From contig CAIRBF010000444.1 of assembly GCA_903876715.1 (NCBI GenBank), positions 1 through 49,518 of the forward strand: DNA of 49,518 nucleotides, written 5' to 3'. Within the stretch, counting starts at the first letter, position 1, and the number at the start of each line of letters is the position of its first letter. Below the pieces are notes generated by a model, which saw nothing but the letters and a program-made list of their open reading frames with translations, had not been told where the DNA came from and ran no database searches. This stretch comes from an uncultured beta proteobacterium. Its GTDB lineage: Bacteria > Pseudomonadota > Gammaproteobacteria > Burkholderiales > Burkholderiaceae_C. Shown here in pieces: positions 4,035 to 23,404 of the stretch. A program made the position numbers and the translations under genes.

Positions 4035-4154
4035 GTGCGCGCTCCAGCCCAGCCTGAAGCCGTAGCTGAAGCCTTTGAAGTCAGCGTCGTAGATGGCGTT
4101 CAGGGCTTCGACCGATGCGCGCTGGACGATCTTGTCCTCCAGCGCGGGCACGCC
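4035..4154 (-). pseudogene. Group II intron reverse-transcriptase remnant (copy 2)
   Basis: The leftward frame gives GVPALEDKIVQRASVEALNA followed by IYDADFKGFSYGFRLGWS, the RT block 1-2 region of group II intron proteins (family consensus FLGFSYGFRPGRS). Only about 40 residues survive. It begins at the exact base (4154) where IS91-family coding sequence starts on the other strand, and ends where the ABC-ATPase scrap starts. Confidence 0.72.
4089..4154. repeat. 66-bp direct repeat, copy B (RT fragment)
   Basis: Second copy of the 66-bp sequence at 1812-1877, with one mismatch. Here it is fused to IS91-family transposase sequence rather than to more reverse transcriptase. Confidence 0.85.
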
Positions 4155-4437
4155 TGGCCCCGAACGCCAAACTGCGCCCGCTGGTGGTACCGCAGCCCCT
4201 TCCCGCACAAGCACAGACCTCTGCTGAGGCGGCAGACACAGAAGGCTGCAAGACCTAGACGGTTCAGGCCCGGCTGCACCGCATCAGTTGGGCGCGGTTG
4301 CTCAAGCGCGTGTTTGACATCGACACGGAGCGGTGCCCGAACTGTGGCGACGGAGAACTGAAGATCATCGCGGCCATCCTTGAGCGGCCGGCGATCGAAA
4401 AGATCCTGAGCCACCTCGGACTGGATCCACAGCCGCC
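4154..4437 (+). pseudogene. IS91-family transposase, 3' remnant with amber codon
   Basis: Rightward translation starts inside the gene with LAPNAKLRPLVVPQP and continues to RLHRISWARLLKRVFDIDTE, CPNCGDGELKIIAAILERP and IEKILSHLGL, the typical C-terminus of IS91-family transposases. An in-frame TAG interrupts it after GCKT (near 4257). The N-terminal and catalytic regions are absent. The sequence ends precisely at the start of the second ~215-bp repeat. Together with 2250-2444 this could be the two ends of one broken element or two different copies. Confidence 0.78.
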
Positions 4438-4651
4438 GAGCCCGGACACAAGCAGTCCAGTGGACTGCTTGTGCCTGGCGAAGGGCCGGGCCACTGGTCC
4501 GGCGCGCCCTGCAAGGGGCCCCGGGACCGGGCGCGCGAGACGGGTGAGGCCTGGGTGCACTGAGCCCGGACCTGGTGGATCGGGGCTTCAGGCGACTGTC
4601 CAAGCGCATCGCACCCACCGAAGGCACATCGAGGCTGTGACGTGTGACCCG
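4438..4651. repeat. ~215-bp palindrome-rich repeat, copy 2
   Basis: Second copy of the repeat at 2445-2663, same orientation, with about ten substitutions. It directly follows the 3' remnant of the IS91-family transposase, a place where the replication-origin end of such elements would be expected. The 285 bases from 4652 to 4936 hold no gene I can support. Confidence 0.8.
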
Positions 4652-5179
4652 ACCGGGGTGGGGCTGCCCGCCTCAAGTGTCACCACGCTGGCGGGCGGCC
4701 TCAGGACCCGTGTGAACCCGGGCGCGCGACCGTGCGGGCGGCGCGCGACGTGTCGGGCTGAGCCTCGAGGCGTCTTGTCTGGCCGTGGATGGATGGGCGG
4801 GGCCTGCGAGACCTCGGATCAAGCGGCGCTGTCGGGTTTACTCCGGGGCCTGTCGGCTTGAAGAGGGCGGTTGAATTTTCTATGCTCCGCGGCCCATCTG
4901 GGCGAGTGATCGCGCTGCCGGCCCGATCCTGCCGCCTCAGGTGATGACGCCGAGCTGCTACGGCACGAACTCCTGCTGGCCGTAGCCGTGCTGCTCGCTG
5001 CGCGAGCGCTTGCCCGAGGCGGTGCCCAGCATCAGCTGGAACAGCTCGGAGCCGAGCGCCCCGATCGTCCTGGAGCCGTCGAGCACCTCGCCGCAGTTCA
5101 CGTCCATGTCGTTGGTCTGCGCCTTCCAGAGCGCGGTGTTGGTGGCGATCTTGAGCGACGGCGAGGGCGTGCAACCGTA

Positions 5180-5187
5180 GGCCGAAC
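5180..5187. repeat. 8-bp target-site duplication, left
   Basis: GGCCGAAC immediately left of the IS256-family element; the same 8 bases follow it at 6639-6646. IS256-family elements usually duplicate 8 or 9 bases. Confidence 0.9.
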
Positions 5188-6638
5188 GAGCCTGTCCGGA
5201 ATTTTGTGTGCGAGGCATAGCATGACCAGAAGGAGCATGTATGCCGAGCAGGAAGACGACGAAGGCGGCGCTGGCCGCAGTGGCGGCGATGCCGCCGATC
5301 CCTAAAGACATCATTGACCAGTTCGTCACCGGGCCGATGAGCGCGGAGTCGGTGGAGTCGATTTCCCTGGCCTTCAAGAAGGCGCTGATCGAGCGGGCGC
5401 TGGGCGCCGAGCTGTCGCACCACCTGGGCTACCGGCCGGGTGCGGACAAGCCCGAGGACAGCAGCAACCACCGCAACGGTGCCAGCGCCAAGACGGTGTT
5501 GACCGGGGACGGTCCGCTGCGCATTGAAGTACCGCGCGACCGGCAGGGCAGTTTCGAGCCACTGCTCATCGCCAAGCACGAGCGCCGCTTCAGCGGCTTC
5601 GACGACAAGATCGTGGCCATGTATGCGCGCGGCATGACGGTGCGCGAGATCCAAGCCTTCCTGGCCGAGCAGTACGGCACCGAGGTCGCGCCGGACTTCA
5701 TCAGCAGCGTCACCGACGCGGTGATGACCGAGGTCACCGCCTGGTAGGCCAGGCCGCTTGATCCGATGTACCCGGTGGTCTTCTTCGACGCCCTGCGGGT
5801 CAAGATCCGCGAGGACGCGGTCGTTCGCAACAAGGCGATCTATCTGGCGCTGGGCATCCTGCCCGATGGCACGCGCGACATCCTGGGCCTATGGATCGAG
5901 GGCACCGAGGGGGCGAAGTTCTGGATGAAGGTCTTCAACGACCTGAAGACCCGTGGCGTGGCCGACATCCTGATTGCCGTCACCGATGGACTCAAGGGCA
6001 TGGCCGAGGCGCTGGGCGCGGTGTTCCCGGCCACCACGCTGCAGACCTGCATCGTGCATCTGATCCGCAACAGCCTGGACTACGCCAGTTGGAAGGACCG
6101 CCGGGCGCTGGCAGCAGCGCTCAAGGCGATCTACACCGCCCCCAGTGCCGAGGCCGCGCTGGGCGAACTGGATGCCTTCGAGCAAGGCGACTGGGGCCGG
6201 CGCTTCCCCACCGTGGTGGCCTCCTGGCGCCGGGCTTGGGACAAGGTGATCCCGTTCTTCGCGTTCCCGCCGGCCGTGCGCAAGGTGGTCTACACGACCA
6301 ACGCCATCGAGAGCATCAATGCGCGGCTGCGCAAGATCATCAAGACCCGCGGGCACTTCCCCAGCGACGACGCGGCGTCCAAGCTGATCTGGCTGGCGCT
6401 GCGCAACATCACCGCTGACTGGGGCAACGCGGCGCAGGACTGGAAGACGGCGATGAACCAGTTCGCGATACTCTATGAGGATCGATTCACGCGGGGCGCG
6501 CACGGCCCCGGCTGATCGTGGGGTTGAACCATGAATACATGGCTCAACCGGGGCGCCTCCGGCGGCCTGGCAGGGGCCTGAAGATCATCAAGAGTCAATT
6601 CAGCAAACCGCCTCACACACAGAAATCCGGACACTCCC
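5188..6638 (+). mobile_element. IS256-family insertion sequence, 1451 bp
   Basis: The ends are imperfect inverted repeats: GAGCCTGTCCGGAATTTTG on the left and GGGAGTGTCCGGATTTCTG on the right (reverse complement), matching at 23 of the first 29 bases. GGCCGAAC is duplicated on both sides. Length and single transposase gene fit the family. The element lies in the opposite orientation to the dehydratase gene it breaks. Its transposase carries an internal amber codon, so it is probably immobile unless helped by another copy. Confidence 0.93.
5241..6515 (+). pseudogene. IS256-family (mutator-type) transposase with amber stop
   Basis: Starts at ATG 5241 behind an AGGAG site. The first piece (168 residues) includes SSNHRNGASAKTV and KHERRFSGFDDKIVAMYARG, and ends in TEVTAW at TAG 5745-5747. 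The same frame continues ARPLDPMYPVVFFDALRVKI; the family has glutamine at this position, so CAG has become TAG. The second piece carries the DDE residues: D in FFDALRVK, D in VTDGLKGM and E in TTNAIESINARLRK. Reading through the stop gives about 424 residues, the usual length. Translation could in principle restart at ATG 5766, but that product would lack the DNA-binding half. Confidence 0.9.
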
Positions 6639-6646
6639 GGCCGAAC
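6639..6646. repeat. 8-bp target-site duplication, right
   Basis: Second GGCCGAAC, directly after the right inverted repeat of the IS256-family element. In the dehydratase frame it encodes the end of GRGSA. Confidence 0.9.
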
Positions 6647-7939
6647 CGCGTCCCGTGGTGAAGCAGATCACGTTCGCGCCGCCGGCGACCTGGCCGGTCG
6701 CCGACACCGGGTCGTAGCCGGGCGTATCCATGAACACCAAACCATGCGCGCGCACCGGTTCGGCGTACTCGTAGACCTCGACCAGGTTGGTCGAGCCCGC
6801 CTTGGCGATTCCGCCAAGTGATTTCTCCAGCACGGTGGTCAGGCCGCCGGTCTTGTTGCCGGCGCTGGGGTTGTTGTCCATGCTCGCGCCGTTGCGGGCG
6901 CAGTGCGCTTCCCACCAGCGGATCCGTTCCACCAGCTTGCGGCCGATTTCGGGTGTCTGCGCGCGCCGCATGAGCAGATGTTCCGCGCCGTAGATCTCGG
7001 GCGTCTCGGAAAGGACCGCTGTGCTACCCTGAGCGACCAGCAGGTCCACCGCAGCGCCCAGCACCAGGTCGGCCGAAATGCCGAAGTAACTGTCCGAGCC
7101 GCCGCACTGCAGGCCCACGGTGAGCAGGCGCGCGGGCACCGGCTCGCAACGGGCCTTATCGGCCTCGGGCAGCGTATGCTCGACGAGCTCGATGCCGCGC
7201 GCGATCGCCCCGGTCGTGCCACCGCTGTCCTGGATCGTGAAGGCACGCAACCGGTGGCTGTCCTCGAGCCCCTGGGTCGCTAGCAGTTTCGGAATCTGAT
7301 TGGTTTCGCAGCCCAGGCCGACCACCAGCACGCTGGCGAAGTTGGGATGACAGGCGTAGCCGCCCAGCGTGCGCTACAAAACGGCGAGATCCTCGCCCTC
7401 CGAGTCGACCGCGCAGCCCGAGTCATGGGTCAGGGCGACCACGCCGTCTACGTTTGGGTAGCACGCGAGCGCCTCGGGGTGAACGTCGCGGCTGTAGCGA
7501 TCGGCGATGGCGCGCCCCAAGGTGGCCGAGCAGTTCACCGAGGTGAGGATGCCGATGTAGTTGCGCGTGGCCACGCGGCCATCGGGCCGCACGATGCCAT
7601 CGAACGTCACCTGCGCGGCGGGGCTGGGCGTCTGGCACGTTTCCTCGGCGAGCGCATAGTCACGTGCGAAGTCGCCGACGATCAGATTGTGCGTGTGCAC
7701 GTGCTGGCCGCGCGCGATGGGCCGGCTCGTGAAGCCGATCACCTGGCTGTAGCGGCGAACGGCCTGGCCTTGCGCGATGGCGCGGGTGGCGATCTTGTGG
7801 CCTGGCGGGATCAGCCCGGCCACCGTCAAATCCTCGCTTTCGACCCGTGCGCCGGCGATGAGCTGATCGAGCGTGATGATCACGTCGTCTTCCGGGTGCA
7901 GCTGGATGACGCGCGGCGAACCCGCTCGCGTGGAGTCCA

Positions 7940-9154
7940 TCATCGTGCCTGCGCCGTACCGACCAGCAGGCCGCGTCGTGCCAGATTCGTCATCAGCGCG
8001 CTGACGCCGAAGGTCCAGCGCTCAGCCTTGTCCGACGTCACCACGCGGTTGGTGAGCAGGCCCAGGCGCGGCGTGGAGATTCGCACCACGTCGCCCACTT
8101 CGTGGGTGAAGCCTTTGCCCGGGCCGTGCCGGTCTTCGATGGGCGCGAACATAGTGCCCAGGAACAGCATGAAGCCGTCGGGGTAGTCGTGGTGGGCGCC
8201 GATGACCTGCGAGACCAGGTCCAGCGGGTCGCGGCTGATGCGGCTCAAGGAACTCGCGCCGCGCATGACGAAGCCGCGCTCGCCCTGCACGTGCAGCGCG
8301 AGGTCGCAGGCGCGCACATCGTCCATGCCGAAGTGCTCGTCGAACAGGCGGATGAACGGGCCGATGGCGCAGGATGCGTTGTTGTCCTTGGCCTTCGAGA
8401 GCAGCAGCGCGCTGCGGCCTTCGAAATCCCGCAGGTTCACGTCGTTGCCGAGCGTCGCGCCCACCACCGCGCCGCGGCTCGTGACCGCGAGGACGACCTC
8501 GGGCTCCGGATTGTTCCAGTCTGACTGGGGGTGCACGCCGACGTTCGCGCCGGTGCCCACCGCAGACAGGACGGGCGTTTTGGTGAACACCTCCGCGTCC
8601 GGGCCGATACCGACTTCCAGGTACTGGGACCACACGCCACGCTCGATCAGCAGCCGCTTGACCTGCATGGCGCGCGCCGAGCCCGGTGCGACGCCGGCGA
8701 GATTGCCTCCGAGCGCGCCGGCCAGCTCTTCACGGATCGTACGTGCCTTGAGGGCATCGCCCCGGGCCTGCTCCTCGATCACGCGCTCCAGCAGGCTGTC
8801 GATGAACGTGACACCGCTCGCCTTGATCACCTGCAGGTCGCAGGGAGCGAGCGGCCACGCGCGAGCGCTGTCACGCGAACGCTCGTCGCCGTTGCCCAGA
8901 ACTTCGCCGAGCGTCGCGACGACGGGCGCGCCGTCCAGCGCCGCGCGCACGTGCCGCGCAAGCTCGGCGAGTTCCAGCAATTGGCTCATGATGGGCGCCA
9001 GCGCCGAGAGATCGACGAGATGCTGGCCGTGCACGCCGACGAGGATCGGCCCGACGCCGGGTTGCCAAATGCGGCCCACCAACAATGCGAGATCCGCATC
9101 GGAGGGCAAGGTCTCCGCGACCGGGGCGACAGTGGAAAGATTCATGGATTGCAT
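7940..9154 (-). CDS. Fumarylacetoacetate-hydrolase-family protein
   Basis: About 404 residues (start ATG 9154, or ATG 9145 giving MNLSTV). The C-terminal half is an FAH-type domain: NNPEPEVVLAVTSRGAV provides the metal-binding glutamate region, and GNDVNLRDFEGRSALLL carries the ND pair normal for the family. FAH relatives split diketo acids or dehydrate 2-keto-3-deoxy sugar acids. In L-rhamnose and L-fucose oxidative pathways an FAH member hydrolyses the 2,4-diketo-3-deoxy acid. Placement between an aldolase and a sugar-acid dehydratase (ATGA overlap with the latter) points to such a role here. The exact substrate cannot be read. The N-terminal ~110 residues are less conserved. Confidence 0.85.
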   Translation of the reverse strand: MQSMNLSTVAPVAETLPSDADLALLVGRIWQPGVGPILVGVHGQHLVDLSALAPIMSQLLELAELARHVRAALDGAPVVATLGEVLGNGDERSRDSARAWPLAPCDLQVIKASGVTFIDSLLERVIEEQARGDALKARTIREELAGALGGNLAGVAPGSARAMQVKRLLIERGVWSQYLEVGIGPDAEVFTKTPVLSAVGTGANVGVHPQSDWNNPEPEVVLAVTSRGAVVGATLGNDVNLRDFEGRSALLLSKAKDNNASCAIGPFIRLFDEHFGMDDVRACDLALHVQGERGFVMRGASSLSRISRDPLDLVSQVIGAHHDYPDGFMLFLGTMFAPIEDRHGPGKGFTHEVGDVVRISTPRLGLLTNRVVTSDKAERWTFGVSALMTNLARRGLLVGTAQAR

Positions 9155-9213
9155 CGAGCGGTGACGCGGCCGGGATCGTCTGGCTGGGCCGCACGCCTCG
9201 CGGTGCGTGGACT

Positions 9214-10002
9214 TCAGCGGGAAGCGCCGAAGCGGCTCTTGAACTCGTGCGCGACCTGATCCGCCGACTTGCGCAGCATCACCACATCGGTGGCCACGGC
9301 GACGAACAGCGCGCCTTGCTCGAGACACTCGCTGACGTGCGCCTGATCGAGCAGGATGATGCCCGGCGCCTTGTTGCAGGCGAGGATGCGCCGGATCGCC
9401 GAGCGGATCGCTTCGCGCACCTTGGGATGGCCTGTGTCGCCCGGCACGCCCAGGCTGGCCGACAGGTCCCCCGGGCCGATGAAGACGCCGTCGACGCCTT
9501 CGACGCTGGCGATGGCCTCCAATCGTTCCAGAGCCTCCGCGGTCTCGACCTGCACGATCAGGCAAAGCTCGTCTTGCGCCGTCTGCACGTAGTTCGCGTC
9601 GCGGCCGAAGCGCGCCGATCGCGTCGCACCGCCCATGCCGCGCGTGCCGTGCGGGGGATAGCGCGTCGCCGCCACCGCGCGCTGCGCTTCCTCTTCGGTC
9701 TGCACGAAGGGCAGCAGCAGCGACTGCGCGCCGATGTCCAGATACTGCTTGATCAACACCGGATCGTTCCACGGCGGACGAACGACGGCCGACGTCGGCC
9801 GCTCTCGCTCCGCCTGCACCGCCTGAAGCAGTTGCATCATCAGCACCGGGTCGCTGGGCGTGTGCTCGGCGTCCAGCATGATCCAGTCGAAGCCGGCTCC
9901 CGCGATCAGTTCCGCGACGTGCGGGCTCGGGATGACCGACCAACAGCCGATCTGCGGAATCTTGGCGGTGAGGGCGTGCTTGAGGGGATTGGGGGCGGGC
10001 AT
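9214..10002 (-). CDS. HpcH/HpaI-family 2-keto-3-deoxy-acid aldolase
   Basis: A 262-residue class II (metal-dependent) aldolase of the HpcH/HpaI/GarL/YfaU family, which cleaves 2-keto-3-deoxy acids to pyruvate and an aldehyde. Motifs in order: IPSPHVAELIAGAGFDWIML, the catalytic histidine in DAEHTP, the arginine in VVRPPWND, the metal glutamate in VQVETAEALE and the metal aspartate in GPGDLSASLG. Length and motif spacing are normal. It lies 59 bases upstream of the FAH gene on the same strand and would perform the last step of a sugar-acid route producing pyruvate plus lactaldehyde or tartronate semialdehyde, depending on substrate. Confidence 0.9.
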   Translation of the reverse strand: MPAPNPLKHALTAKIPQIGCWSVIPSPHVAELIAGAGFDWIMLDAEHTPSDPVLMMQLLQAVQAERERPTSAVVRPPWNDPVLIKQYLDIGAQSLLLPFVQTEEEAQRAVAATRYPPHGTRGMGGATRSARFGRDANYVQTAQDELCLIVQVETAEALERLEAIASVEGVDGVFIGPGDLSASLGVPGDTGHPKVREAIRSAIRRILACNKAPGIILLDQAHVSECLEQGALFVAVATDVVMLRKSADQVAHEFKSRFGASR

Positions 10003-10052
10003 GGATCTTGTGGACTGGCGGTGGTTGTGGGGTGCGAAGCGCGCGGCAGCGA

Positions 10053-11039
10053 TCAGTCGATGCGGATGTTGTTGGCTTTGATCAGTGTCGAGAATGCCGC
10101 GCTCTCGGTCCGCATGCGGTCCCCGAACTCGCGCGGCGTGGTGGAAAGCAGCTGGAAGCCCTGGGCTTCGAGCGGCGCGCGGAAGGCGGGATCCTGCAGG
10201 ATGGCCTGCGACTCCCGGCTGATGCGCTCGACGATGGCGGACGGCGTGCCGGCCCTCATCAGGATGCCGGTCCAGGCGAGCGACACGACGCCCGGCACGC
10301 CGGCTTCCGCGATGGTGGGCACGTCAGGAAGTTGCGGCGAGCGTTGCCGATCGGCGACGGCGAGGATGCGCACGCGCCCCTGTTTGTGCAGGTCGGCCAC
10401 CGCTGAGAGCGCGTGGATCATCAAGGGAATGTGGCCGGCCATCATGTCGGCCAGCGCCGGCGGGCCACCCTTGTAGGGCACGTGCACCAGGGAAATGCCG
10501 GCAGCAGCCCCCAGCTGCAGGCCGAGCAGATGCGTCGTGTTTCCGTTGCCTCCCGATCCGAAGCTGATGGTGCCCGGCTTGGCCTTAGCGGCGGCGACCA
10601 CGTCCCCCAGCGTTTTGTACGGCGACTGGACGTTGGCCACGAGCACGTTGGGCGCCTGGAAGGCGTTGGTGATCGGCTGCAGATCCGTCAACGGATCGAA
10701 GGGCAGGGATGTGTAGAGATGCGGGTTGATCACCATGGTGCTGATGCCGCCGAACAGCAGCGTGTAGCCGTCCGCAGGTTGCGTGCGTGCCACGTGGGCG
10801 GCGCCGATGTTGCCGTTGGCGCCGGTCTTGTAGTCGAGCACCACCGGCTTGCCGAGCCGCTTGGACAGCATCACGCCGTAGGGACGCGCGACCACGTCGA
10901 CCACCCCCCCCGGCGGCGTGGGCACCACGATGGTGATCGTGCGTGACGGGTAGGTGTCCTGCGCGCTCGCAAATGTGCACAGCGCAGGCAACAGGGCGAC
11001 GCCGACGCAACGGCGGACAAAGCGAGCTAACCGATTCAT
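10053..11039 (-). CDS. Bug/TctC-family periplasmic solute receptor
   Basis: A 328-residue tripartite-tricarboxylate-transporter-type receptor. A Sec signal peptide ends at about ASA (residue 26). The mature protein starts QDTYPSRTITIVVPTPPGG and continues with GKPVVLDYKTGANGNIGAAH and HVPYKGGPPALADMM, hallmark segments of the Bug family. Such receptors capture carboxylates or sugar acids outside the inner membrane. No TctA/TctB membrane genes are present in the window, which is common in Burkholderiales where orphan Bug genes abound. ATG 11039 is preceded by GAAGGAG. As the first gene after the GntR gene it probably heads the transport step for the sugar-acid substrate. Confidence 0.9.
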   Translation of the reverse strand: MNRLARFVRRCVGVALLPALCTFASAQDTYPSRTITIVVPTPPGGVVDVVARPYGVMLSKRLGKPVVLDYKTGANGNIGAAHVARTQPADGYTLLFGGISTMVINPHLYTSLPFDPLTDLQPITNAFQAPNVLVANVQSPYKTLGDVVAAAKAKPGTISFGSGGNGNTTHLLGLQLGAAAGISLVHVPYKGGPPALADMMAGHIPLMIHALSAVADLHKQGRVRILAVADRQRSPQLPDVPTIAEAGVPGVVSLAWTGILMRAGTPSAIVERISRESQAILQDPAFRAPLEAQGFQLLSTTPREFGDRMRTESAAFSTLIKANNIRID

Positions 11040-11099
11040 GGGATCTCCTTCAAGGCGGGCGATGGTTCGCGACGATGCGCAGGGCAGGCGGAGTTTGCG

Positions 11100-11160
11100 T
11101 CGCCGTCGCCCTTCGGTTTTATAAGATGCCAATGAGATATTACGCATGATTTATCCGTGC
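11100..11160 (-). promoter_or_regulatory. AT-rich promoter region of the Bug/aldolase operon
   Basis: This is the only AT-rich stretch in the 270-base gap between the GntR and Bug genes. Read leftward it contains CTTATAAAAC, a possible -10 region. TGAGATATTA at 11133-11142 recurs exactly at 12050-12059 in the gap between the GntR and sulfatase genes, suggesting a shared regulator site. Confidence 0.45.
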
Positions 11161-11310
11161 CGTCAACCCCAGTGTTCGTGGACGCCGCGCGCCGCCGCAG
11201 AATCCAGTCAGTCCGCGAGGAGTCCGTTGATCAGGGGTGCCGGAGGAGGCGCAGGCACAGAGAGGCGGGATGGAGCGACCGGGGCCTCAGGGCGCGCCGG
11301 CACAGGGGAG

Positions 11311-11985
11311 CTACAGCCCCAATGCGCGCCGCTCGGCACCCTTGAGGTGCTCGTCGAGCGCGGCGGCGGCGCGCTCTGGATCGCGTGCCTTGACCGCCGC
11401 GATCACGTTCAGGTGTTCTTCCAGCGCCATGGGCAGGTAGCGCGGAGAACGTCCGTGCAGCCGGATCATCCGGATCTTGTCAAAGTTCTGCTGATGCGCG
11501 CTCATGGTGATGCTGTTGCCCATCGCCTCCACCATGCGGTTGTGCATGCCCCAGTCCACCCGCAAGGCCATGTCGATCAGGCGCGGATCGTCATTGCCTC
11601 CGCCAGCGAAACGGGCGAGAACCTCGGTGGTCTCGCGTTCGAGTTCCGCGATCGCCCCGTCTGTGGCTTCCACCGCATACCGGCGTACCGCGGCGCACTC
11701 GATGATCCGGCGAAAGTCGAAGGCGTCATGAATCAGCGCGACGCCGATGTCGGCGATCTGTACGCCGCGCTGGGGGATCAGCTTGACGAGACCCTCCGCC
11801 TCCAGCCGTTTGAGGGCTTCGCGCGTGGGCCCGAGCGGGACGTCCAGAAGTTCGCAGAGGTCGCCTTGCGAGACGAATTGCCCTGGCACCAGATGGCGCT
11901 TGAACAGATGCAGCTTGAACCGCTCGTACGCCACCTCGCGCATCAAGGCGCCCCCCCGGGGTTTGCGAGCGATGTTGGCGGGCAT
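11311..11985 (-). CDS. GntR-family (FCD/FadR-type) transcription regulator
   Basis: A 224-residue regulator. The winged HTH spans about residues 15-75 (FVSQGDLCELLDVPLGPTRE, then LKRLEAEGLVKLIPQRGVQI). The helical FCD effector domain follows, with metal-ligand-like D and H residues in LIDMALRVDWGMHNRMVEAM and LEEHLNVIAAVKARDPE. This subfamily senses sugar acids or carboxylates. ATG 11985 is chosen because AGGAG lies just upstream. It stands between the leftward catabolic operon and the divergent sulfatase operon, so it is the natural candidate to control both. A perfect inverted repeat at 12031-12049 lies 46 bases upstream of its start. Confidence 0.88.
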   Translation of the reverse strand: MPANIARKPRGGALMREVAYERFKLHLFKRHLVPGQFVSQGDLCELLDVPLGPTREALKRLEAEGLVKLIPQRGVQIADIGVALIHDAFDFRRIIECAAVRRYAVEATDGAIAELERETTEVLARFAGGGNDDPRLIDMALRVDWGMHNRMVEAMGNSITMSAHQQNFDKIRMIRLHGRSPRYLPMALEEHLNVIAAVKARDPERAAAALDEHLKGAERRALGL

Positions 11986-12030
11986 GTGTAGCGGCTCCTG
12001 TTCTGCTAACGCTATTGTCAGCGAAGATGC

Positions 12031-12049
12031 GTCGTATGTAGAATACGAC
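12031..12049. promoter_or_regulatory. Candidate GntR operator, GTCGTAT-N5-ATACGAC
   Basis: A perfect 7-bp inverted repeat, GTCGTAT-GTAGA-ATACGAC, in the 204-base gap between the divergent GntR and sulfatase genes. GntR/FadR-type operators commonly contain GTAT...ATAC half sites. It is followed at once by TGAGATATTA (shared with the Bug promoter), and by a second inverted repeat, GATATT-N10-AATATC at 12053-12074. Confidence 0.55.
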
Positions 12050-12189
12050 TGAGATATTAGAGATCGACAATATCGATCCTGGCACCGAGACTCGGACCAG
12101 CGAGCCGCACGAGGAGACGAGCGCGGCACCTTCCCCGAATCCATCGGGTACATCTTTTCCCGCAACCGTGAATAGGAGCACACGCTGCA

Positions 12190-13680
12190 ATGCCATCTAC
12201 CCAACGGCCCAATCTCCTGTTCCTGTTCTCCGACCAGCACGCGCGCCGCATCGCGGGCTGCTATGGCGACAAGGTGGCCGAAACTCCGAACCTAGACGCA
12301 CTCGCGGCATCAGGCGTCACTTTCGACAACGCGTACTGCCCGTCGCCCCTGTGCGTGCCCAGCCGGATGGCGATGCTCACCGGCCGCCACCCCTATGCGC
12401 AGGAGTGCTGGACCAACGACGACTACCTGCGATCCGATGCCGCGACGTGGCTGCACGCGCTGGGCGCGGGCGGCTACCGGCCACTGCTCGCGGGACGGCT
12501 TCATTCCATGGGGCCCGATCAGCTGCACGGCTACGCGGAACGCACTGTGGGCGATCACAGCCCCAACTGGGGTGGGGTGCCGCGCCACGACCTCGGCGTG
12601 CTCGATCGTGCCAACGATCCGTGGCCCGAGAGTCTCGCGCAGTCCGGCGTGGGGCAGTCGGCCTACCAGGTCAAGGACTTCGACACTGCCAAAGCCGCCT
12701 GCGAGGCCATCCGTGCCCATGCCCGTGCGCGGGCGCAGGGCAGCGACGCCCCGCTTTGCCTGACCGTCGGCTTTCTGCTGCCGCATCCACCCTATGTCGC
12801 CTGGCGCGAGGACTACGAGCGCTTCGCCGGGCGCGTGCCGCCGCCCCAGCATGGCTCGCCGCCGGTTCCCACCCACGCCTGGGAGCGGTGGTGGCGCGAC
12901 GACCGCCAGTTGCACGACATCGATCCGGTCGCAGTGGAGCGCGCCAGAACCGCCTACTACGCGCTGACCTATCGGCTGGATTGCCTGATCGGGCAGGTGC
13001 TCGCCGCGCTGAAGGCGACAGGCGAAATGGACGACACGCTGATCGTCTACACCACCGACCACGGCGACCAGCTCGGCGAGCGCGGGCTGTGGTGGAAGCA
13101 CACGCTGCTCGAGGATTCGCTGCGCGTTCCGCTCATCATGCGTTGGCCGGCACGTCTGCCGGCCGGCCAGCGGCGTGCCCAGGTCTGCAACCTCGTCGAC
13201 GTGGCCGCCACCATGGTGGAAGCGCTGCACGCGGAGCCGCTGCCCCACGCGCAGGGTCGCAGCCTGCTGGGCGTGGCCATGGACGCGGGCGTATCCTGGC
13301 TCGACGTGACCTTCAGCGAGCATTGCACCGACACCGTTCCCGCTTGGACGGGTGGCAGGTCGGTGCAGCAGCGCATGGTGCGCGAGGGGAAATACAAACT
13401 CATCTACACCCACGGCGACGCGCCGATGCTGTTCGATCTCGATCGCGATCCGGCCGAACGGCACGACCTCGCGTCCGATCTCGCGCATGGCGGCACGCGC
13501 GAGCGCCTGCTCGCCAAGGTGCTGGATGGCTGGGATCCCGAGCGGATCGCAGCCACCATCGCGGCAAGACGGCGCGAGAAGAAGGTGATCGACGCGTGGG
13601 CCCGTCATGTGCGACCCGAGGACAGCTTCCGCTGGTCGCTCACGCCCGAGCTCAATCGCCTCGAGCGGGCCGCATCGTGA
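12190..13680 (+). CDS. Cytoplasmic S1-family sulfatase
   Basis: A 496-residue type I sulfatase (formylglycine-dependent, alkaline-phosphatase superfamily). The metal aspartate lies in LLFLFSDQHARRI (D15). The catalytic cysteine is C55 in PLCVPSRMAMLTG, matching C-x-P-S-R, which the formylglycine-generating enzyme or an anaerobic maturase must convert. A second metal motif is TTDHGDQLGERG (D290, H291). No signal peptide is present, so it acts in the cytoplasm on a small imported sulfate ester rather than on polymer. AGGAG precedes ATG 12190. It overlaps the aldo/keto reductase start (GTGA), placing desulfation and sugar oxidation in one unit. Choline-sulfatase-like substrates are an alternative, but the neighbours argue for a sulfated sugar. 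Confidence 0.9.
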   Translation: MPSTQRPNLLFLFSDQHARRIAGCYGDKVAETPNLDALAASGVTFDNAYCPSPLCVPSRMAMLTGRHPYAQECWTNDDYLRSDAATWLHALGAGGYRPLLAGRLHSMGPDQLHGYAERTVGDHSPNWGGVPRHDLGVLDRANDPWPESLAQSGVGQSAYQVKDFDTAKAACEAIRAHARARAQGSDAPLCLTVGFLLPHPPYVAWREDYERFAGRVPPPQHGSPPVPTHAWERWWRDDRQLHDIDPVAVERARTAYYALTYRLDCLIGQVLAALKATGEMDDTLIVYTTDHGDQLGERGLWWKHTLLEDSLRVPLIMRWPARLPAGQRRAQVCNLVDVAATMVEALHAEPLPHAQGRSLLGVAMDAGVSWLDVTFSEHCTDTVPAWTGGRSVQQRMVREGKYKLIYTHGDAPMLFDLDRDPAERHDLASDLAHGGTRERLLAKVLDGWDPERIAATIAARRREKKVIDAWARHVRPEDSFRWSLTPELNRLERAAS

Positions 13681-14618
13681 ACACGGTCGCGGCGGCATGG
13701 CCCCGGCTCGGGGTCGGTTGTGCGGCGCTGGGCCAGCCCGATGTCTCCGATCATGATGCGCAAGCCACGCTCGCGCGCGCGCTTGAATGCGGGATCCGCC
13801 TGTTCGATGTGGCGCCCCTGTATGGCGGGGGGCTGGCCGAGCGTCGCCTCGGACGCGCGCTGCGTGGTGCCGCCCGCGACGAGATCGTGGTCACCACCAA
13901 GACAGGAGTTACGCGCCCTGCAGGCCAGGGAGCGACACCGCTCGGGGCGACGCAGCGTCGCGCCGCGGACCGGTGGAACTACTCTGCCGCCGCCACCCGC
14001 GCCTCGGTGGAGCACAGCCTCGAACGCCTGGGGCTCTCGCGGATGGACGCCGTCCATCTGCACGATGTGGAGCACCACGTCGAGGTCTGTCTCGAAGCGC
14101 ATGATGCGCTCGGGCAGATGCGTGCGGAGGGCCTCGTGGGCGCGATTGGCATCGGCAGCAACGAGGTCGCCCCGGTGGCCACCCTGGTATCGCGTGCTCG
14201 TTTCGATGTCATCCTGCTGGCGGGGCGCTACACGCTGCTGGACGACAGCGGCGTGGCGCTGATCGCCGCCGCCGCGCAAGGCGGCATCGCGGTGGTGGCC
14301 GCGGGCGTCTTCAACTCCGGCGTGCTCGCGGCATGGCCGCAGGCCGCGCCCTTGTTCGCGTATGAGCCGGCGAGCGCGCACGTGTTGGAGCGCACGGCGC
14401 GCATCGCAGCCGTCTGCGAGCGTCATCGCATTCCCCTCGCCGCCGCCGCGCTGCAGTTCGTGGCCCGCAATCCCGCGGTGCACACGGTGCTGCTCGGCCC
14501 CAGAAGTCCGGCGGAGCTCGATGCCAATCTGGCCGCGATGCGGACCGAGATCCCCCCCGGCTTCTGGATCGAGCTCGCCGGCACCGACACGAGAGAGAAA
14601 ACCCATGACCATCGATGA
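13677..14618 (+). CDS. Aldo/keto reductase, L-fucose (D-threo-aldose) dehydrogenase type
   Basis: A 313-residue AKR starting at GTG 13677, overlapping the sulfatase stop by GTGA. It shows the AKR catalytic set: D44 and Y49 in FDVAPLYGGGLAERRLG, K75 in VTTKTG, and histidines in VHLHDVEHH. AGRYTLLDDSG and GVFNSGVLA are segments characteristic of the D-threo-aldose 1-dehydrogenase/L-fucose dehydrogenase group, which oxidises the sugar to its lactone with NAD(P)+. A lactonase-type gene follows with a 14-base overlap. Pyridoxal or other aldehydes are possible substrates in this family, but the neighbours favour a sugar. Confidence 0.87.
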   Translation: MNTVAAAWPRLGVGCAALGQPDVSDHDAQATLARALECGIRLFDVAPLYGGGLAERRLGRALRGAARDEIVVTTKTGVTRPAGQGATPLGATQRRAADRWNYSAAATRASVEHSLERLGLSRMDAVHLHDVEHHVEVCLEAHDALGQMRAEGLVGAIGIGSNEVAPVATLVSRARFDVILLAGRYTLLDDSGVALIAAAAQGGIAVVAAGVFNSGVLAAWPQAAPLFAYEPASAHVLERTARIAAVCERHRIPLAAAALQFVARNPAVHTVLLGPRSPAELDANLAAMRTEIPPGFWIELAGTDTREKTHDHR

Positions 14619-15498
14619 TCCCGCCAGTGCCGACGCCCAGCCCGCTTCCATGCGGATCGACGCCCATCTGCATCACTGGCAACCCGCGTGCAACTTCGAC
14701 AACCGCCCGGTCGCCGACCAGCCGTTCTATCGGCGCGACTTCATGCCGGCCGATGCGCGAGCCGCGCTCGACGCATGCCGCATCGACGGCGTGATTCTTG
14801 TGCAGACCGCACCGCAGACCGAGGAAACCGACTGGTGCATCAGGCTGGCGAGCGAGACGCCGCGCATCTGGGGGGTCACCGCATGGGTCGATCTGGACGG
14901 TGCGCCCGTGGACTTCGGCGCGCTGGCCCGGCGTCCCAAGGTGGTGGGTATTCGTGCCCAGCTGCGCCGGATCGCCGACAGCGATTTCATCGCGCGGCCG
15001 CAGGTCACCGAAAACCTGGCGGCCGCACTGCACGCGAAGCTCGGCGTCGTGCTGCTCGGGGAAGCGCGGCACTACGCTGCCGTGAGCAGGGCGCTGGACC
15101 GGTTGCCTCCCGGGCCCCTCACGGTCAACCATCTGGCGCTGCCCGCGCCCGACATGGACGCCGAGCCATGGCGTGCGTTCATGCGCCGCCTCGCCGAGCG
15201 TCCCGACACGTTCGTTCAGTTCTCGGGCATCCCGTTCTGCTTCGGCGCGCAGTGGCGTGACGGCCACGCGCGCGCTTGTATGGAAGACGCGCTGCGCATC
15301 CTGGGGCCGCAGCGGATGCTGTATGCATCCGACTGGCCGATGCTGCTGCGCTTCGCCCAGTACGAAGAGTGGTTCGAGACGGCCTGGAAGTTCTTCGCCA
15401 CCCTCGCGCCCAAGGACGTGGCCGCGATCTTCGCGGGCAATGCGCTACGTGCCAATCCGCGTCTGCGTGTTCCGCAGCGCACCCTTGACGTAGGCTGA
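14605..15498 (+). CDS. COG3618 amidohydrolase, probable sugar lactonase
   Basis: A 297-residue amidohydrolase_2 family protein, homologous in type to L-fucono-1,5-lactonase and 2-pyrone-4,6-dicarboxylate lactonase. Metal-site features: H21 and H23 in MRIDAHLHHWQ, a histidine in LTVNHLALP and an aspartate in MLYASDWPMLLRF. It would open the lactone made by the preceding dehydrogenase. ATG 14605 overlaps the reductase gene by 14 bases; a second possible start, MRIDAHL, lies 15 codons later. It is the last gene of the sulfatase operon. Confidence 0.85.
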   Translation: MTIDDPASADAQPASMRIDAHLHHWQPACNFDNRPVADQPFYRRDFMPADARAALDACRIDGVILVQTAPQTEETDWCIRLASETPRIWGVTAWVDLDGAPVDFGALARRPKVVGIRAQLRRIADSDFIARPQVTENLAAALHAKLGVVLLGEARHYAAVSRALDRLPPGPLTVNHLALPAPDMDAEPWRAFMRRLAERPDTFVQFSGIPFCFGAQWRDGHARACMEDALRILGPQRMLYASDWPMLLRFAQYEEWFETAWKFFATLAPKDVAAIFAGNALRANPRLRVPQRTLDVG

Positions 15499-15585: not shown

Positions 15586-16020
15586 TTGCGGCAGGCGATG
15601 CGCCCGCGGCTGGGCATGCGAATGCGGATGCAGCGACCGCTGAGCCGGTGGCCGCGCTGGCCACACGCGGTGCTGGCGCGCGACGATGCGCAGGTCCGCG
15701 CCCAGCTCGCCCGCGTGTTCCCGGCCACGCCCACGCGCGGCACGGTGCACCTGGTGCTGCGCGGCACGAACTTCCAGATCCAGGTCTGGCAGGCGATGCT
15801 GCGCACGCGGGCGGGCCAGGTGCTCAGCTACACCGACCTCGCGCAGGCCGTCGGCGCGCCGCGCGCGCAGCGCGCCGTGGGCAGCGCGCTGGGGGCGAAC
15901 ACCATCGCCTGGCTCATCCCCTGCCACCGCGTCATCCGCGACAGCGGCGAGATCTCCCACTACCGTTGGAGGCCGGAGCGCAAGGCCGCGATGCTGGGCT
16001 GGGAGGCGGCGCGATCCTGA
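15586..16020 (+). pseudogene. Truncated ada copy (methyltransferase domain only)
   Basis: Open frame whose last ~115 residues nearly repeat the C-terminus of the ada-like protein at 2979-3860, including FQIQVWQAMLRT and the active motif IPCHRV. The AraC HTH and the first part of the methyltransferase domain are missing. The first ~30 residues (MRQAMRPRLGMRMRMQ) are unrelated, low-complexity sequence. It has no clear ribosome-binding site. A stand-alone alkyltransferase domain might still fold and react, since the acceptor cysteine and DNA-binding helix are intact, but a non-functional duplicate is more likely. Confidence 0.75.
15674..16013 (+). repeat. ~340-bp duplication, copy B (ada 3' part)
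   Basis: Direct repeat of 3484-3823 (offset 12,190). The two copies bracket the mobile debris, the IS256 element and the whole sugar-acid locus. Confidence 0.85.
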
Positions 16021-16099: not shown

Positions 16100-16780
16100 C
16101 TACCAGCTCGCGCCGAACTGCCGCCGCAGCGCCTCGATCTGCGCCTCGTCCAGCGGCGCGGGCCGCGGCTGGCACAGCAGCCACAGGCGCGCCGTCTCCT
16201 CCAGCTCCTCCAGCACCGCGCTCGCCTCGGCCGGGCTGCGGTGCCACACGTTCGGCCCCAGGCGGTCCAGCATCACGGCCCGGATCGGCGTGCCGCGCGC
16301 GGCCATCGCGCCGATGCGCTGCGCGACGAGCTCGGCCACGGCCGGGTCGCCCGGGCGGTGGTAGGGGATCAGCGGCACGTGGCCGACCTTCATCACGAAG
16401 TAGGGCGTGATCGGCGGCACGATGTCGTCCGCGCTCCACACCCCCTGCAGCGTCAGCGCGACCAGGTGCGTGCTGTGGGTGTGGATGACGCAGCGCGCCT
16501 GCGGGTCGGCGGCATAGATGCGCCGGTGCAGGGCCAGGGTCTTGCTGGCGCGGTCGCCTTCCAATTGCACGCCATGGGCGTCCACGCGCGCCAGCCGCGC
16601 CGGGTCCAGGTGGCCCAGGCAGGCGTCGGTGGGCGTGATCACGAAGCCGTCGTCCAGCCGCACGCTGATGTTGCCGGCGGCGGCGTGGACATAGCCGCGC
16701 TCGTACAGGCTGCGGCCGACGCGGCAGATCTCCTCGCGCAGCGAGGATTCGGGGGTGGTGGTGTGGGCAGGGGTGTTCAC
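16100..16780 (-). CDS. Class II aldolase/adducin-family protein, OtnC-like
   Basis: A 226-residue member of the class II aldolase family, nearest in style to 3-oxo-tetronate 4-phosphate decarboxylase (OtnC). The zinc pair H100/H102 is in CVIHTHSTHLVALTL, and AAAGNISVRLDDGFVITPT is the phosphate/substrate loop. Two usual catalytic features seem changed: the glutamate expected in the SKE-x-x-x-H segment is threonine (ASKTLALHR), and the usual NHG region reads MLDRLGPNVW, so the third zinc histidine is not evident. It may therefore act on another substrate or use different ligands. It is the last gene of a leftward run with PhyH, an amino-acid lyase, an SDR and a D-aminoacylase. Confidence 0.8.
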   Translation of the reverse strand: MNTPAHTTTPESSLREEICRVGRSLYERGYVHAAAGNISVRLDDGFVITPTDACLGHLDPARLARVDAHGVQLEGDRASKTLALHRRIYAADPQARCVIHTHSTHLVALTLQGVWSADDIVPPITPYFVMKVGHVPLIPYHRPGDPAVAELVAQRIGAMAARGTPIRAVMLDRLGPNVWHRSPAEASAVLEELEETARLWLLCQPRPAPLDEAQIEALRRQFGASW

Positions 16781-16805
16781 GAGCTCTCGGTAAGGGGGAG
16801 CCGTG

Positions 16806-16830
16806 GGCCCGCGGGAAGGACGCGCGGGCC
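16806..16830. terminator. GC-rich hairpin between the aldolase and PhyH genes
   Basis: GGCCCGCG and CGCGGGCC form an 8-bp stem around a 9-base loop in the 51-base gap. No T run follows on either strand, so it may be an mRNA-stability or attenuation hairpin rather than a true terminator. Confidence 0.35.
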
Positions 16831-16831
16831 G

Positions 16832-17686
16832 TCAGGCCGGCTGTTGTTTGGCCTGCTCGATCGCCTCGCGCACGCGCTTCAGCACCTCGCCGTGGATGCC
16901 CTCGCCCGCGCGGCCGTCGTTGCGCGTGGGGCGCTCGGCGAGCGTGAAGTGGCCGTGGCGGTTCTCGCCCCGCACCAGCATGGCCAGCGGCCGGCTGCCG
17001 TCGCGCTGGCGCACCTGCGCCGCGACGTAGCGGATGGCCAGACCGACCCGCGGCACGTCGCTGCGGTTGGCATCCGAGCCGTGGACGATCCAGAGGTGGT
17101 GCATCGACATCTGGCCCGGCTCCAGGGCCAGGTCCACGGCCTGCGCCTCGTCCACCGCGACCTCGATCTCCTGGCCCCGTGACAGCGCGTTGTCCGGGGC
17201 GAAGGTGTCGCGCTGCTTCAGGGCCGGGCCGCGGTGCGAGCCCGGCAGCACGCGCATGCAGCCGTTGGCGCGCGTCGCCGGCCCGAGCGCGACCCAGGCC
17301 GTCAGCACCTCCATCGGCTCCAGGCCCCAGTAGGCGCCGTCCTGGTGCCAGCTGATGTAGGTCGGATCGCCCGGCATCTTGACGAACCAGACCGTGTTCC
17401 AGGCCAGGAGGTCGGGCCCGAGCACGCGTTCGACGGCGTCCAGGATGGCCGGGTGCCGTGTCAGCCGGTCCACCCACTCGAAGGCGAAGTGGGTGTCGGA
17501 GTTCACCTGCCAGCGCTGGTTCGGGGGCAGCGCCTGCAGCCGGTCGCGGTGGCGCGCGGCGAAGTCGTCGTAGCAGGCGCGGAACCCGGCAGTCTCGGCA
17601 GCCGTGAGCACCGGCACCGGGCAGACGTAGCCGTCGCGGTCGAAGTCACCACGCTGCACCGAGCGCGGCGGGACGGGCTGGACCAT
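16832..17686 (-). CDS. Phytanoyl-CoA-dioxygenase-family Fe(II)/2-oxoglutarate oxygenase
   Basis: A 284-residue PhyH-type enzyme. The iron triad is visible: H114 and D116 in YISWHQDGAYWG, and the distal H202 in WIVHGSDANRS, with R208 as likely 2-oxoglutarate anchor. MRVLPGSHRGP is the usual family strand. Members hydroxylate acyl-CoA, amino acids or small metabolites. The context (amino-acid lyase of the D-threonine aldolase type, SDR, D-aminoacylase) suggests hydroxylation of an amino-acid-like or acyl group, perhaps creating the beta-hydroxy group that the lyase cuts. That link is inference. Confidence 0.87.
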   Translation of the reverse strand: MVQPVPPRSVQRGDFDRDGYVCPVPVLTAAETAGFRACYDDFAARHRDRLQALPPNQRWQVNSDTHFAFEWVDRLTRHPAILDAVERVLGPDLLAWNTVWFVKMPGDPTYISWHQDGAYWGLEPMEVLTAWVALGPATRANGCMRVLPGSHRGPALKQRDTFAPDNALSRGQEIEVAVDEAQAVDLALEPGQMSMHHLWIVHGSDANRSDVPRVGLAIRYVAAQVRQRDGSRPLAMLVRGENRHGHFTLAERPTRNDGRAGEGIHGEVLKRVREAIEQAKQQPA

Positions 17687-17741
17687 GGCGAGACCTCCAG
17701 GAGTGTCAGGTCGGGGAGCGGCTCGGCGGCCAAGCCGGCCC

Positions 17742-18866
17742 TCAGATCGTCAGCCGCCGCGCCCGTGCCGTGACGGGCCAGCGCTCGTCAGCGCGGCCGT
17801 CGCGCACGGCCCAGACCTCGCTGTGCAGCGCCATCGTCGGACAGACGTGGCGCGGCAGGCCGTAGACGACGTCGCCGACGCGGTACTGCCCGGCGCGCGG
17901 CGTCTGCAGCACCAGGTGCTCTTCGCTGTGGACGACGGCTTGGGCATCCTCCAGCCCGAACAGGCGCACCCGCGGGTGCGTCATCTCCGAGCCCACGGCC
18001 TTGTGGCCGAGGTCGAGGCAGATCCGGTCCGACGTCGGTTTGCTGATGACGCGCGCCATCAGCACCGCCGCGTTGCGCATGCGGTGCGAGGGGCTGACCT
18101 CCTCCTGGCCGAAGTCCCACAGCGCCGTCGTGCCCGCGCCCACCTCGACCTCGATGCCCGGCGTGCGCGCCATGATCGCGAAGGTGGGCGTGCCGCTGGC
18201 GATCAGCCGGGGCACGGGCAGGCCCTGGGCCAACAGCCGCTCGCGCAGCGCCCACACCGGCGCGAAGGTCTCGCGCACCTGGGCCTCGAGCACCGCATCG
18301 TCGGGGTCGCGCAGGTGGCCGTCGTAGGCGTGCAGGCCGCCCGCAGCCACCCCCGGCGTGCGGCAGAGCTGCGCATACAGCGCCGCGGCCGCCTCGCCCG
18401 GCGCGATGCCGGTGCGGTTCATGCCTACGTTCAGGTCCACGTACAGCGGCAGCGTGAGGCCGGCGGCCTGCGCCGCCTGGCCGAGCGCCGCCAGGTTGCC
18501 GGCGTCGTCGACCAGCGTCGACCAGCGCACCTTCGGGTAGGCCTGCATCAGGGCGATCAGGCGCGCGATGCCGGGGCCGCTGGGCTGGTGCGCGAGCAGG
18601 ATGTCGGGGCCGCCGGCCTGGGCCGTCATCTCGGCCTCGGCGATGGTCGAGACCTTGAACTTGCGGATGCCGTGCGCGAGCTTCATGGCCACGATCGGGG
18701 CGAGCTTGTGCGTCTTGACGTGCGGACGCAGCCGGGCGGGGTCGCCGCCGACGAGTTCGATCATGCGCCGCAGGTTGTGCTCGACGCGGTCGGTGTGAAC
18801 AAGCACCGTCGGCGAGGCGATCTCGGCGGCGTTGGCGATCTCGTACCTGGGGACGTTCTGGGTCAT
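17742..18866 (-). CDS. D-threonine aldolase / D-3-hydroxyaspartate-type PLP lyase
   Basis: A 374-residue fold-type III PLP enzyme of the alanine-racemase-N plus DSD/DTA group. The PLP lysine lies in LRPHVKTHKLAPI (K51). MNRTGIAPG and LHAYDGHL follow the barrel pattern. The metal site of the DSD-like C-terminal domain is seen in GLPRHVCPTMALH (H340, C342). Enzymes of this family cleave D-beta-hydroxy amino acids to glycine and an aldehyde, or dehydrate D-serine and D-hydroxyaspartate. ATG 18866 (MTQNVPRYE) fits the family start; the open frame upstream is not conserved in character. A D-aminoacylase upstream could supply free D-amino acids. Confidence 0.87.
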   Translation of the reverse strand: MTQNVPRYEIANAAEIASPTVLVHTDRVEHNLRRMIELVGGDPARLRPHVKTHKLAPIVAMKLAHGIRKFKVSTIAEAEMTAQAGGPDILLAHQPSGPGIARLIALMQAYPKVRWSTLVDDAGNLAALGQAAQAAGLTLPLYVDLNVGMNRTGIAPGEAAAALYAQLCRTPGVAAGGLHAYDGHLRDPDDAVLEAQVRETFAPVWALRERLLAQGLPVPRLIASGTPTFAIMARTPGIEVEVGAGTTALWDFGQEEVSPSHRMRNAAVLMARVISKPTSDRICLDLGHKAVGSEMTHPRVRLFGLEDAQAVVHSEEHLVLQTPRAGQYRVGDVVYGLPRHVCPTMALHSEVWAVRDGRADERWPVTARARRLTI

Positions 18867-18987
18867 CGGGGGCTCCGTAGGAGGGCGGTCTGGCGGGACG
18901 GGGGGGGCGCTGCGCTGTTGCCGGGGGTACTGCGGTCGTACGACCTGCCCGTGCCGGCGGGCGCGCGCTTGTCGATGGCGACGGGGC

Positions 18988-19800
18988 TCACCAGACGCTC
19001 CAGCCGCCGTCGACAACCAGATTCTGGCCCGTGATCCAGCGCCCGGCCGGCGAGGCGAACAGGGCGATCGCGCTGCGCAGGTCCTCCGGCACGCCCAGAC
19101 GCCCCAGCGGCACCTGGTTGCGGAAGCGCTCCCGGGTCACTGCGTCGATCGTTGCCTTGGGGATCTGCCCCGGGCTGATGCAGTTCACGGTGATGCCGTG
19201 GGCCGCCCGTTCGCACGCCAGGGCGCGCGTCAGGTTCAGGATCGCGCCCTTGGCGGCGTGGTAAGACTGCGACGAGCGCCGGAACTCCGGCGCGTACAGC
19301 CTCGGGTCGCTGCCCAGGCTGCCGTGGATCGAGCCGACGGTGACGATGGCGCCGCCACCGCGCGGGATCATCGCCCGCGCCGCGGCCTGCGCGCACACGA
19401 GCGTCGTGGAGACGTTCTTGCGCAGCGTGGCTTCGAGGTCGTCGCGACGGATCGCCGGCGCGATGTCGCTGCCCTGGCCGCCACCGGCGTTGCACAGCAT
19501 CAGGTCCAGCCGTCCGTGGCGCGCCAGCAGCTCCTGCACCATGGCCTCGATGGCGGCTTCGTCGGCGGCGTCGGCGCCGAGGCCCTGCGCGTCCAGGCCC
19601 TCGCCGCGCAGCGTGGCGGCGGCGGCCTCGACGACCTCGGCGCGGCGGCCGACGAGCACCACGCGCATGCCCAGTTCGGCCACGGCCCGGGCCATCGCCA
19701 GCCCGAGGTGGGTGCCACCACCCGTGACCACGCCGACCTGGCCGGACAAGTCGAGCCAGCCAGGCAGGGCGGGGCGGGCGGAGTCGGTGGGGGCGGACAT
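18988..19800 (-). CDS. Short-chain dehydrogenase/reductase
   Basis: A 270-residue classical SDR. The cofactor motif is TGGGTHLG (26-33), NAG occurs at 104-106, and the catalytic S157, Y180 and K184 lie in VGSIHGSL and SQSYHAAKGAILNL. It ends WITGQNLVVDGGWSVW, as most family members do. It would oxidise or reduce an alcohol/ketone with NAD(P)H in the cytoplasm. It lies 26 bases after the D-aminoacylase gene and before the PLP lyase gene in the same direction. Substrate not predictable. Confidence 0.88.
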   Translation of the reverse strand: MSAPTDSARPALPGWLDLSGQVGVVTGGGTHLGLAMARAVAELGMRVVLVGRRAEVVEAAAATLRGEGLDAQGLGADAADEAAIEAMVQELLARHGRLDLMLCNAGGGQGSDIAPAIRRDDLEATLRKNVSTTLVCAQAAARAMIPRGGGAIVTVGSIHGSLGSDPRLYAPEFRRSSQSYHAAKGAILNLTRALACERAAHGITVNCISPGQIPKATIDAVTRERFRNQVPLGRLGVPEDLRSAIALFASPAGRWITGQNLVVDGGWSVW

Positions 19801-19826
19801 CGCGGTGCGGCCAAGGATGGCGATGT

Positions 19827-21425: not shown

Positions 21426-21473
21426 CGGCTTTCCTCATCGGCAGCGCTGCCCCTGGCCGGTGCGGACGCAGCT

Positions 21474-21489
21474 TCAATATGGCTATTGA
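21474..21489. promoter_or_regulatory. TCAATA-N4-TATTGA inverted repeat
   Basis: Perfect 6-bp inverted repeat TCAATA-TGGC-TATTGA, 49 bases upstream of the D-aminoacylase start in an otherwise GC-rich 342-base divergent gap (21426-21767). It may overlap the D-aminoacylase promoter. No other gene is seen in the gap. Confidence 0.45.
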
Positions 21490-23357: not shown

Positions 23358-23404
23358 GCAGCGGGGCGGCGGGAAGCATCGGCGGTCGCACGGAGCCTGA
23401 ACGG

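Follow-up and report, generated by a model that had tools for sequence, protein, structure and literature searches.

A candidate island for catabolism of a small sulfated aldose in an uncultured beta proteobacterium: a predicted cytoplasmic sulfatase linked to a sugar oxidation gene set

We analysed a stretch of 49,518 nucleotides (the window) from an uncultured beta proteobacterium, corresponding to contig C444 (CAIRBF010000444.1) of a 5.58 Mb genome in 505 contigs (GCA_903876715.1). The genes in question form two divergent operons that have the intergenic region 11986-12189 in common. Rightwards run a sulfatase, an aldo/keto reductase and a lactonase, and leftwards a GntR-type regulator, a Bug receptor, an HpcH/HpaI aldolase, an FAH-family protein and a UxaA-type dehydratase (Table 1). 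A preliminary description, made from the sequence letters, had named these eight gene families and proposed that they form a catabolic locus for a sulfated sugar; Pfam and NCBIfam scans found all eight families where they had been placed.

Table 1. Features of the two divergent operons and of the insertion in the dehydratase gene (positions in the window).
Feature	Position	Strand	Evidence
UxaA/GarD-superfamily sugar-acid dehydratase gene, broken	4958-7943	-	PF08666 and PF04295 in first piece; PF04295 and PF20629 in second
IS256-family (Mutator-type) insertion	5188-6638	+	1451 bp; PF00872 on both pieces, 5241-5747 and 5766-6515
FAH-superfamily protein, predicted 2-keto-3-deoxy-pentonate dehydratase	7940-9154	-	
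HpcH/HpaI-family aldolase, predicted 2-keto-3-deoxy-aldonate aldolase	9214-10002	-	PF03328 165 bits
Bug/TctC-type periplasmic binding protein	10053-11039	-	PF03401 214 bits
GntR/FCD-family regulator	11311-11985	-	PF07729 69 bits, PF00392 37 bits
Perfect inverted repeat GTCGTAT-5-ATACGAC between the divergent operons, candidate operator	12031-12049	.	weak
S1 (formylglycine-type) sulfatase	12190-13680	+	496 aa, CVPSR motif with C55; PF00884 132 bits, SGSH_C 60 bits
Aldo/keto reductase, predicted aldose 1-dehydrogenase	13677-14618	+	PF00248 154 bits
COG3618-type sugar lactonase (Amidohydro_2)	14605-15498	+	297 aa; PF04909 91 bits

In the right-hand operon the sulfatase TGA overlaps the reductase GTG (GTGA, 13677-13680), as had been proposed, and the lactonase ATG (14605) falls within the 3' end of the reductase gene; judged by these start and stop overlaps, the three genes look like a functional unit. 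The top five Protein Data Bank (PDB) matches of the reductase are all L-galactose dehydrogenases (9w6y, 99.7 bits). The lactonase has a single PDB match, 4dlf at 57 bits, and its only NCBIfam match is L-fucono-1,5-lactonase, at 113.5 bits and below the cut-off of 400. An L-fucono-1,5-lactonase of COG3618 was reportedly described by Hobbs in 2013. The inverted repeat between the operons is weak as an operator because it is not conserved: CGTAT-N5-ATACG occurs once in the window and also once in each of two of the 20 shuffles of the 443 kb searched, and a search of 25 further loci did not yield it, so that a conserved operator was set aside.

The sulfatase is predicted to be cytoplasmic and to lack a signal peptide. 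Its start at 12190 is the first ATG, GTG or TTG after a stop and stands immediately 5' of the first strand, PNLLFLFSDQH (MPSTQRPNLLFLFSDQH), which leaves a signal peptide no room; in 8 of 19 relatives, judged by eye, an in-frame stop lies at most 18 codons upstream of the matched start. The protein has both the sulfatase domain and the CxPxR motif of S1 formylglycine sulfatases, and C55, P57 and R59 are invariant across the 22 aligned sulfatase rows. The suggestion that the genome be searched for a sulfatase-maturing enzyme was followed, and FGE-sulfatase proteins (PF03781) scored above the cut-off at five places (best 268 bits), providing candidate maturing enzymes. The same genome contains 20 sulfatase matches, at least two pairs of which are pieces of one gene. 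Plasmid records gave seven matches, the best of them 39.4% identical.

The preliminary description had made its reading depend on conserved linkage between the sulfatase and the neighbouring genes in other genomes, and such linkage is found in other genera and classes. A search through named genomes yielded 24 sulfatase relatives, 21 of them at 52-79% identity, around which neighbours were counted as flank matches of at least 60 bits (the flanks of loci L006, L008, L009, L016, L025 and L027 being short). GntR is near the sulfatase in 13 of these loci, the reductase lies in the flank in eight, the lactonase in six, and a UxaA-type dehydratase stands beside the sulfatase in four. Further contigs add to these counts. 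On a second contig of the L009 genome (L102) the C-terminal part of the sulfatase stands at the start, followed by reductase and lactonase, which brings the reductase count to nine and that of the lactonase to seven; in the L025 genome, where the contig is split, L103 reads SsuA-B-C-C-reductase-lactonase in the same order as L010, making a probable tenth and eighth case. The reductase is directly next to the sulfatase in L005, L006, L007, L008 and L102, and no more than about 6 kb away in L010, L012, L015 and L019, with transporter or regulator genes between. This linkage spans Beta- and Alphaproteobacteria.

Co-occurrence points the same way in the G299 family, where the same 5 of 64 genomes carry both the sulfatase (E 1e-110) and the reductase (E 1e-58). 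The corresponding chance, 1.3e-7 if genomes are independent, overstates the evidence because the five genomes may be related. In the window's own family the sulfatase was found in 1 of 299 genomes, namely its own, and reductase matches (E <=1e-58) in four, the other three scoring 204-206 bits versus 673. The sulfatase was not found in three genomes of the same genus, which suggests that the window genome acquired it.

A tree of 31 reductases extends the comparison to the enzymes themselves, with the qualification that 20 of the 57 non-linked matches were used, hand-picked mostly from the top, and 37 were left out. The 11 sulfatase-linked reductases (that of the window and ten others, of which L103 is only probably linked) fall together with two Granulosicoccus reductases on one side of a 97/96 branch, and 18 other reductases from the same genomes fall on the opposite side. 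Both Granulosicoccus genes lie in clusters with an FCD-type regulator, a UxaA-type dehydratase, an HpcH aldolase and a COG3618-type lactonase, as well as an aldehyde dehydrogenase, an enolase-family enzyme and sugar transporter genes (families assigned by scan in L105 and by similarity in L106). It is through these clusters that this group of reductases connects with the families found in the left half of the window locus. No sulfatase match was present in those Granulosicoccus stretches; the same genomes carry the sulfatase on another contig.

Transporter genes recur among the sulfatase relatives. An NMT1/SsuA-type binding protein (cluster c6) has relatives in 9 of 23 loci. At L015 the top score of the binding protein is with SsuA, the aliphatic sulfonate family (158 bits, cut-off 163.5), that of the ATPase with taurine and nitrate types, and that of the permease with SaoP, TauC and SsuC, all of them under cut-off. 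The Granulosicoccus, Rhodobacter and Oceaniglobus loci have TctABC-like genes, recognised by sequence and not by family scan, together with an enolase-family enzyme, a UxaA-type dehydratase and an unknown protein. In the Rhodobacter and Oceaniglobus relatives two sulfatase-family genes flank a nickel-pincer-cofactor isomerase of group 22 (L023:8667-9986, 443 bits, cut-off 400; L024:8691-9992, by similarity). A conserved protein of about 460-470 aa (cluster c7) also accompanies the sulfatase in 9 of 23 loci, including L018:14268-15635; the one member scanned, that of L018, had no Pfam or NCBIfam match.

In the left-hand operon the aldolase scores 307 bits with the NCBIfam model HpaI, under the cut-off of 369. 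The dehydratase ATG overlaps the FAH TGA, and the gene, which starts at 7943, lies mostly beyond the span covered by the preliminary description. It is interrupted twice, by an in-frame TAG (7374-7376) and by an insertion sequence, beyond which the frame ends at 4958. The insertion is flanked by identical 8-bp target repeats GTTCGGCC (5180-5187 and 6639-6646), and its ends are alike at 23 of 30 positions; its transposase frame (5241-6515) is itself split by a stop codon (5745-5747). Cysteines 138, 177, 212 and 280 of the dehydratase, counted across the TAG, correspond at a constant offset of +4 to the published iron-binding cysteines of the Herbaspirillum enzyme (134, 173, 208 and 276; PMC6336799). 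They do not fix the substrate, because the same paper finds them across the superfamily except in sulfolactate sulfo-lyase. A dehydratase paralogue on contig C427, 68% identical to the window gene over its second piece, has the four cysteines at exactly the published numbers, and those of L018 and L093 are spaced differently. The paralogue adjoins an SDR gene and a protein near 2,4-didehydro-3-deoxy-L-rhamnonate hydrolase (445 bits, cut-off 500). It could replace the broken gene, and the pathway in this genome may be either decaying or served by a dehydratase encoded elsewhere. Galactarate dehydratase (GarD) was set aside as a name for the enzyme, since three intact relatives score 404, 402 and 390 bits, below the cut-off of 731.

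The closest published parallel that we found is the D-arabinose-induced cluster of Paraburkholderia mimosarum, which joins a reductase with a COG2721 dehydratase and a COG3970 FAH-type dehydratase, and whose aldo/keto reductase acts on D-arabinose, L-fucose and L-galactose (the relevant part of PMC6336799). In that paper Watanabe and co-workers also describe two characterised Herbaspirillum enzymes, a COG2721 D-arabinonate dehydratase and a D-KDP dehydratase of the FAH family. The window resembles the P. mimosarum Route II cluster (cluster 4) in its aldose 1-dehydrogenase, COG2721 dehydratase and FAH-family 2-keto-3-deoxy-pentonate dehydratase families, whereas the sulfatase, the COG3618-type lactonase, the HpcH aldolase and the Bug receptor are additional to what the passages on that cluster describe, and the window dehydratase is broken. 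This parallel is nearer than the fucose locus of Campylobacter jejuni, which had been put forward for its UxaA-family dehydratase and COG3618-type hydrolase. That comparison holds in outline, in that a dehydrogenase, a hydrolase, a dehydratase and then an aldolase-type step are listed; in the passages on the locus (PMC6946681), however, the two families are not named, the dehydrogenase is FabG-like, a DapA-type enzyme takes part and no sulfatase is mentioned. A literature search on a sulfatase combined with fucose or D-arabinose oxidation, or on intracellular sugar desulfation, gave no description of the present gene set among titles and beginnings of abstracts, with few subscription journals covered. 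A paper on a plasmid that carries a putative operon for organic sulfate metabolism (PMC3346939) and one on ulvan use by Pseudoalteromonas (PMC13050008) may bear on it, as may PMC4454575.

We hypothesize, at a rough probability of 0.57, that these genes form an island for the breakdown of a small sulfated aldose, which would be imported, desulfated inside the cell and oxidized without phosphorylation. In several relatives an ABC transporter of the SsuA/TauABC-like kind would bring in the sugar sulfate; in the window the candidate for import is the Bug receptor. The cytoplasmic formylglycine sulfatase would take off the sulfate. The aldo/keto reductase would then oxidize C1 to give a lactone, the COG3618-type lactonase would open it to the aldonate, and the UxaA/GarD-type iron dehydratase would form a 2-keto-3-deoxy acid; the HpcH aldolase would split this acid, or the FAH-family protein would dehydrate it towards alpha-ketoglutarate semialdehyde. 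The families of the non-phosphorylating D-arabinose/L-fucose pathway, that is dehydrogenase, lactonase, dehydratase (with its gene broken) and those processing 2-keto-3-deoxy-pentonate (KDP), are all in one place, and the enzyme families point to an aldose that probably has the D-arabinose, L-fucose or L-galactose configuration. We infer the substrate, the place where it carries its sulfate and the order in which desulfation and oxidation follow each other, as we do that the left operon would serve the same sugar as the sulfatase operon.

Several results should make for caution with regard to this hypothesis. The sulfatase, reductase, lactonase and aldolase all miss the curated NCBIfam cut-offs, and we therefore assign no substrate; the dehydratase gene is interrupted as described above. 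A linked reductase was not found or assigned in 14 of the 24 loci, a lactonase is absent near the sulfatase of L006, and in the L008 genome it lies on another contig. When the 11 linked reductases are taken alone the tree needs two label changes and they form a single clade in 10% of 200 bootstrap trees; the L015 reductase, moreover, is a long branch. An SsuA-type query from L006 found no close relative in the window genome (best 47 bits, 31%), and on that result a transporter of the relatives' kind acting in trans was set aside. Furthermore, among the loci compared the left operon adjoins the sulfatase only in the window, and neither FAH nor HpcH matched in any of the 24 other sulfatase flanks, some of which are short. 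Of the single catabolic locus that had been proposed, the linkage of sulfatase, GntR, reductase and lactonase thus recurs, whereas its association with FAH and HpcH does not.

It could accordingly be argued that two unrelated modules, sulfatase-reductase-lactonase and Bug-HpcH-FAH-dehydratase, were juxtaposed by chance or by the rearrangement that formed the repeats around them. The empty flanks favor such a view, as does the finding that dehydratase and FAH genes lie one gene apart, without a sulfatase, in G052:C30 and G124:C41 (200 genomes of the family searched for each), and the region lies between the copies of a 300-nt repeat and contains an insertion sequence. However, the two Granulosicoccus clusters join the reductase group with a lactonase, a UxaA-type dehydratase and an HpcH aldolase, and P. 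mimosarum joins reductase, dehydratase and FAH (PMC6336799). We consider two unrelated modules unlikely. We hold in similarly low regard the possibility of sulfur scavenging, in which sulfatase and SsuA/TauABC-like transporter take up a sulfate ester, whether of a sugar or not, mainly for its sulfate and the reductase and lactonase dispose of the carbon part. A transporter of this type would fit scavenging, too, and the sub-cut-off scores at L015 lie nearest to just such families. The presence of a GntR/FCD regulator adjoining the sulfatase in more than half of the loci argues in the other direction, as do the lactonase and dehydratase links, which indicate carbon use, and the tricarboxylate-type (TctC/TctA) transporter genes recognised by sequence in other relatives.

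Far less probable is a reading that takes the enzyme for a choline sulfatase (BetC) or a general arylsulfatase and its neighbours for unrelated genes. Choline-sulfatase is the closest NCBIfam model, and BetC (6fny, 192 bits) the closest PDB entry and thus the closest solved relative by sequence, sharing the S1 assignment and a CxPSR-type motif (the sections on the enzyme, also called SmCS, in PMC5870055 and PMC9063841). The model score, however, is 293.9 bits against a cut-off of 433.45, and the choline hairpin GW-X13-WYHN, where the ammonium group is clamped between Trp129 and His145 (PMC9063841), was found in 0 of 20 sulfatase rows. The window enzyme also differs from BetC in its neighbours, and the reductase and lactonase recur. 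The choline sulfatase identity was set aside on the low score and the absent hairpin.

Desulfation of algal and soil sulfated glycans has been studied mostly for the secreted or periplasmic sulfatases of polysaccharide degraders. On a wider form of our hypothesis we regard the odds as about even: that a dedicated route exists in which a free sulfated monosaccharide is taken up intact via a sulfonate- or tricarboxylate-type transporter and desulfated in the cytoplasm before non-phosphorylating oxidation, and that the unit has spread between Beta- and Alphaproteobacteria. If true, scavengers of released sugar sulfates would have a route in the cytoplasmic sulfatase and the sugar oxidation pathway together with which it is inherited, and a function would be indicated for a sulfatase group that falls under every curated cut-off seen. 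The sulfatase together with its own reductase group could then serve as marker genes for such scavengers in genomes.

The surroundings of the locus contain further repeats and genes. An ada/ogt-type gene is present as a full copy (2706-3860, Pfam) and as a truncated second copy (about 15586-16020), and within its 3' half lies a 300-nt direct repeat (92%) at 3463-3762 and 15653-15952. This repeat brackets the sulfatase and dehydratase region, as if the island had arrived with a duplication. A 232-nt repeat (93%) is located at 2442-2673 and 4435-4666, and short stretches at 1773-2567 and 3513-4214 resemble, by eye, remnants of a group II intron maturase, the latter having no Pfam match. To the right, 16100-30597 contains genes for a class II aldolase, a D-serine/D-threonine-type pyridoxal phosphate (PLP) enzyme, an SDR protein, M81/MlrC and permeases (Pfam); with a D-aminoacylase-like reading frame at 19827-21425, it appears to be a D-amino-acid or peptide neighbourhood.

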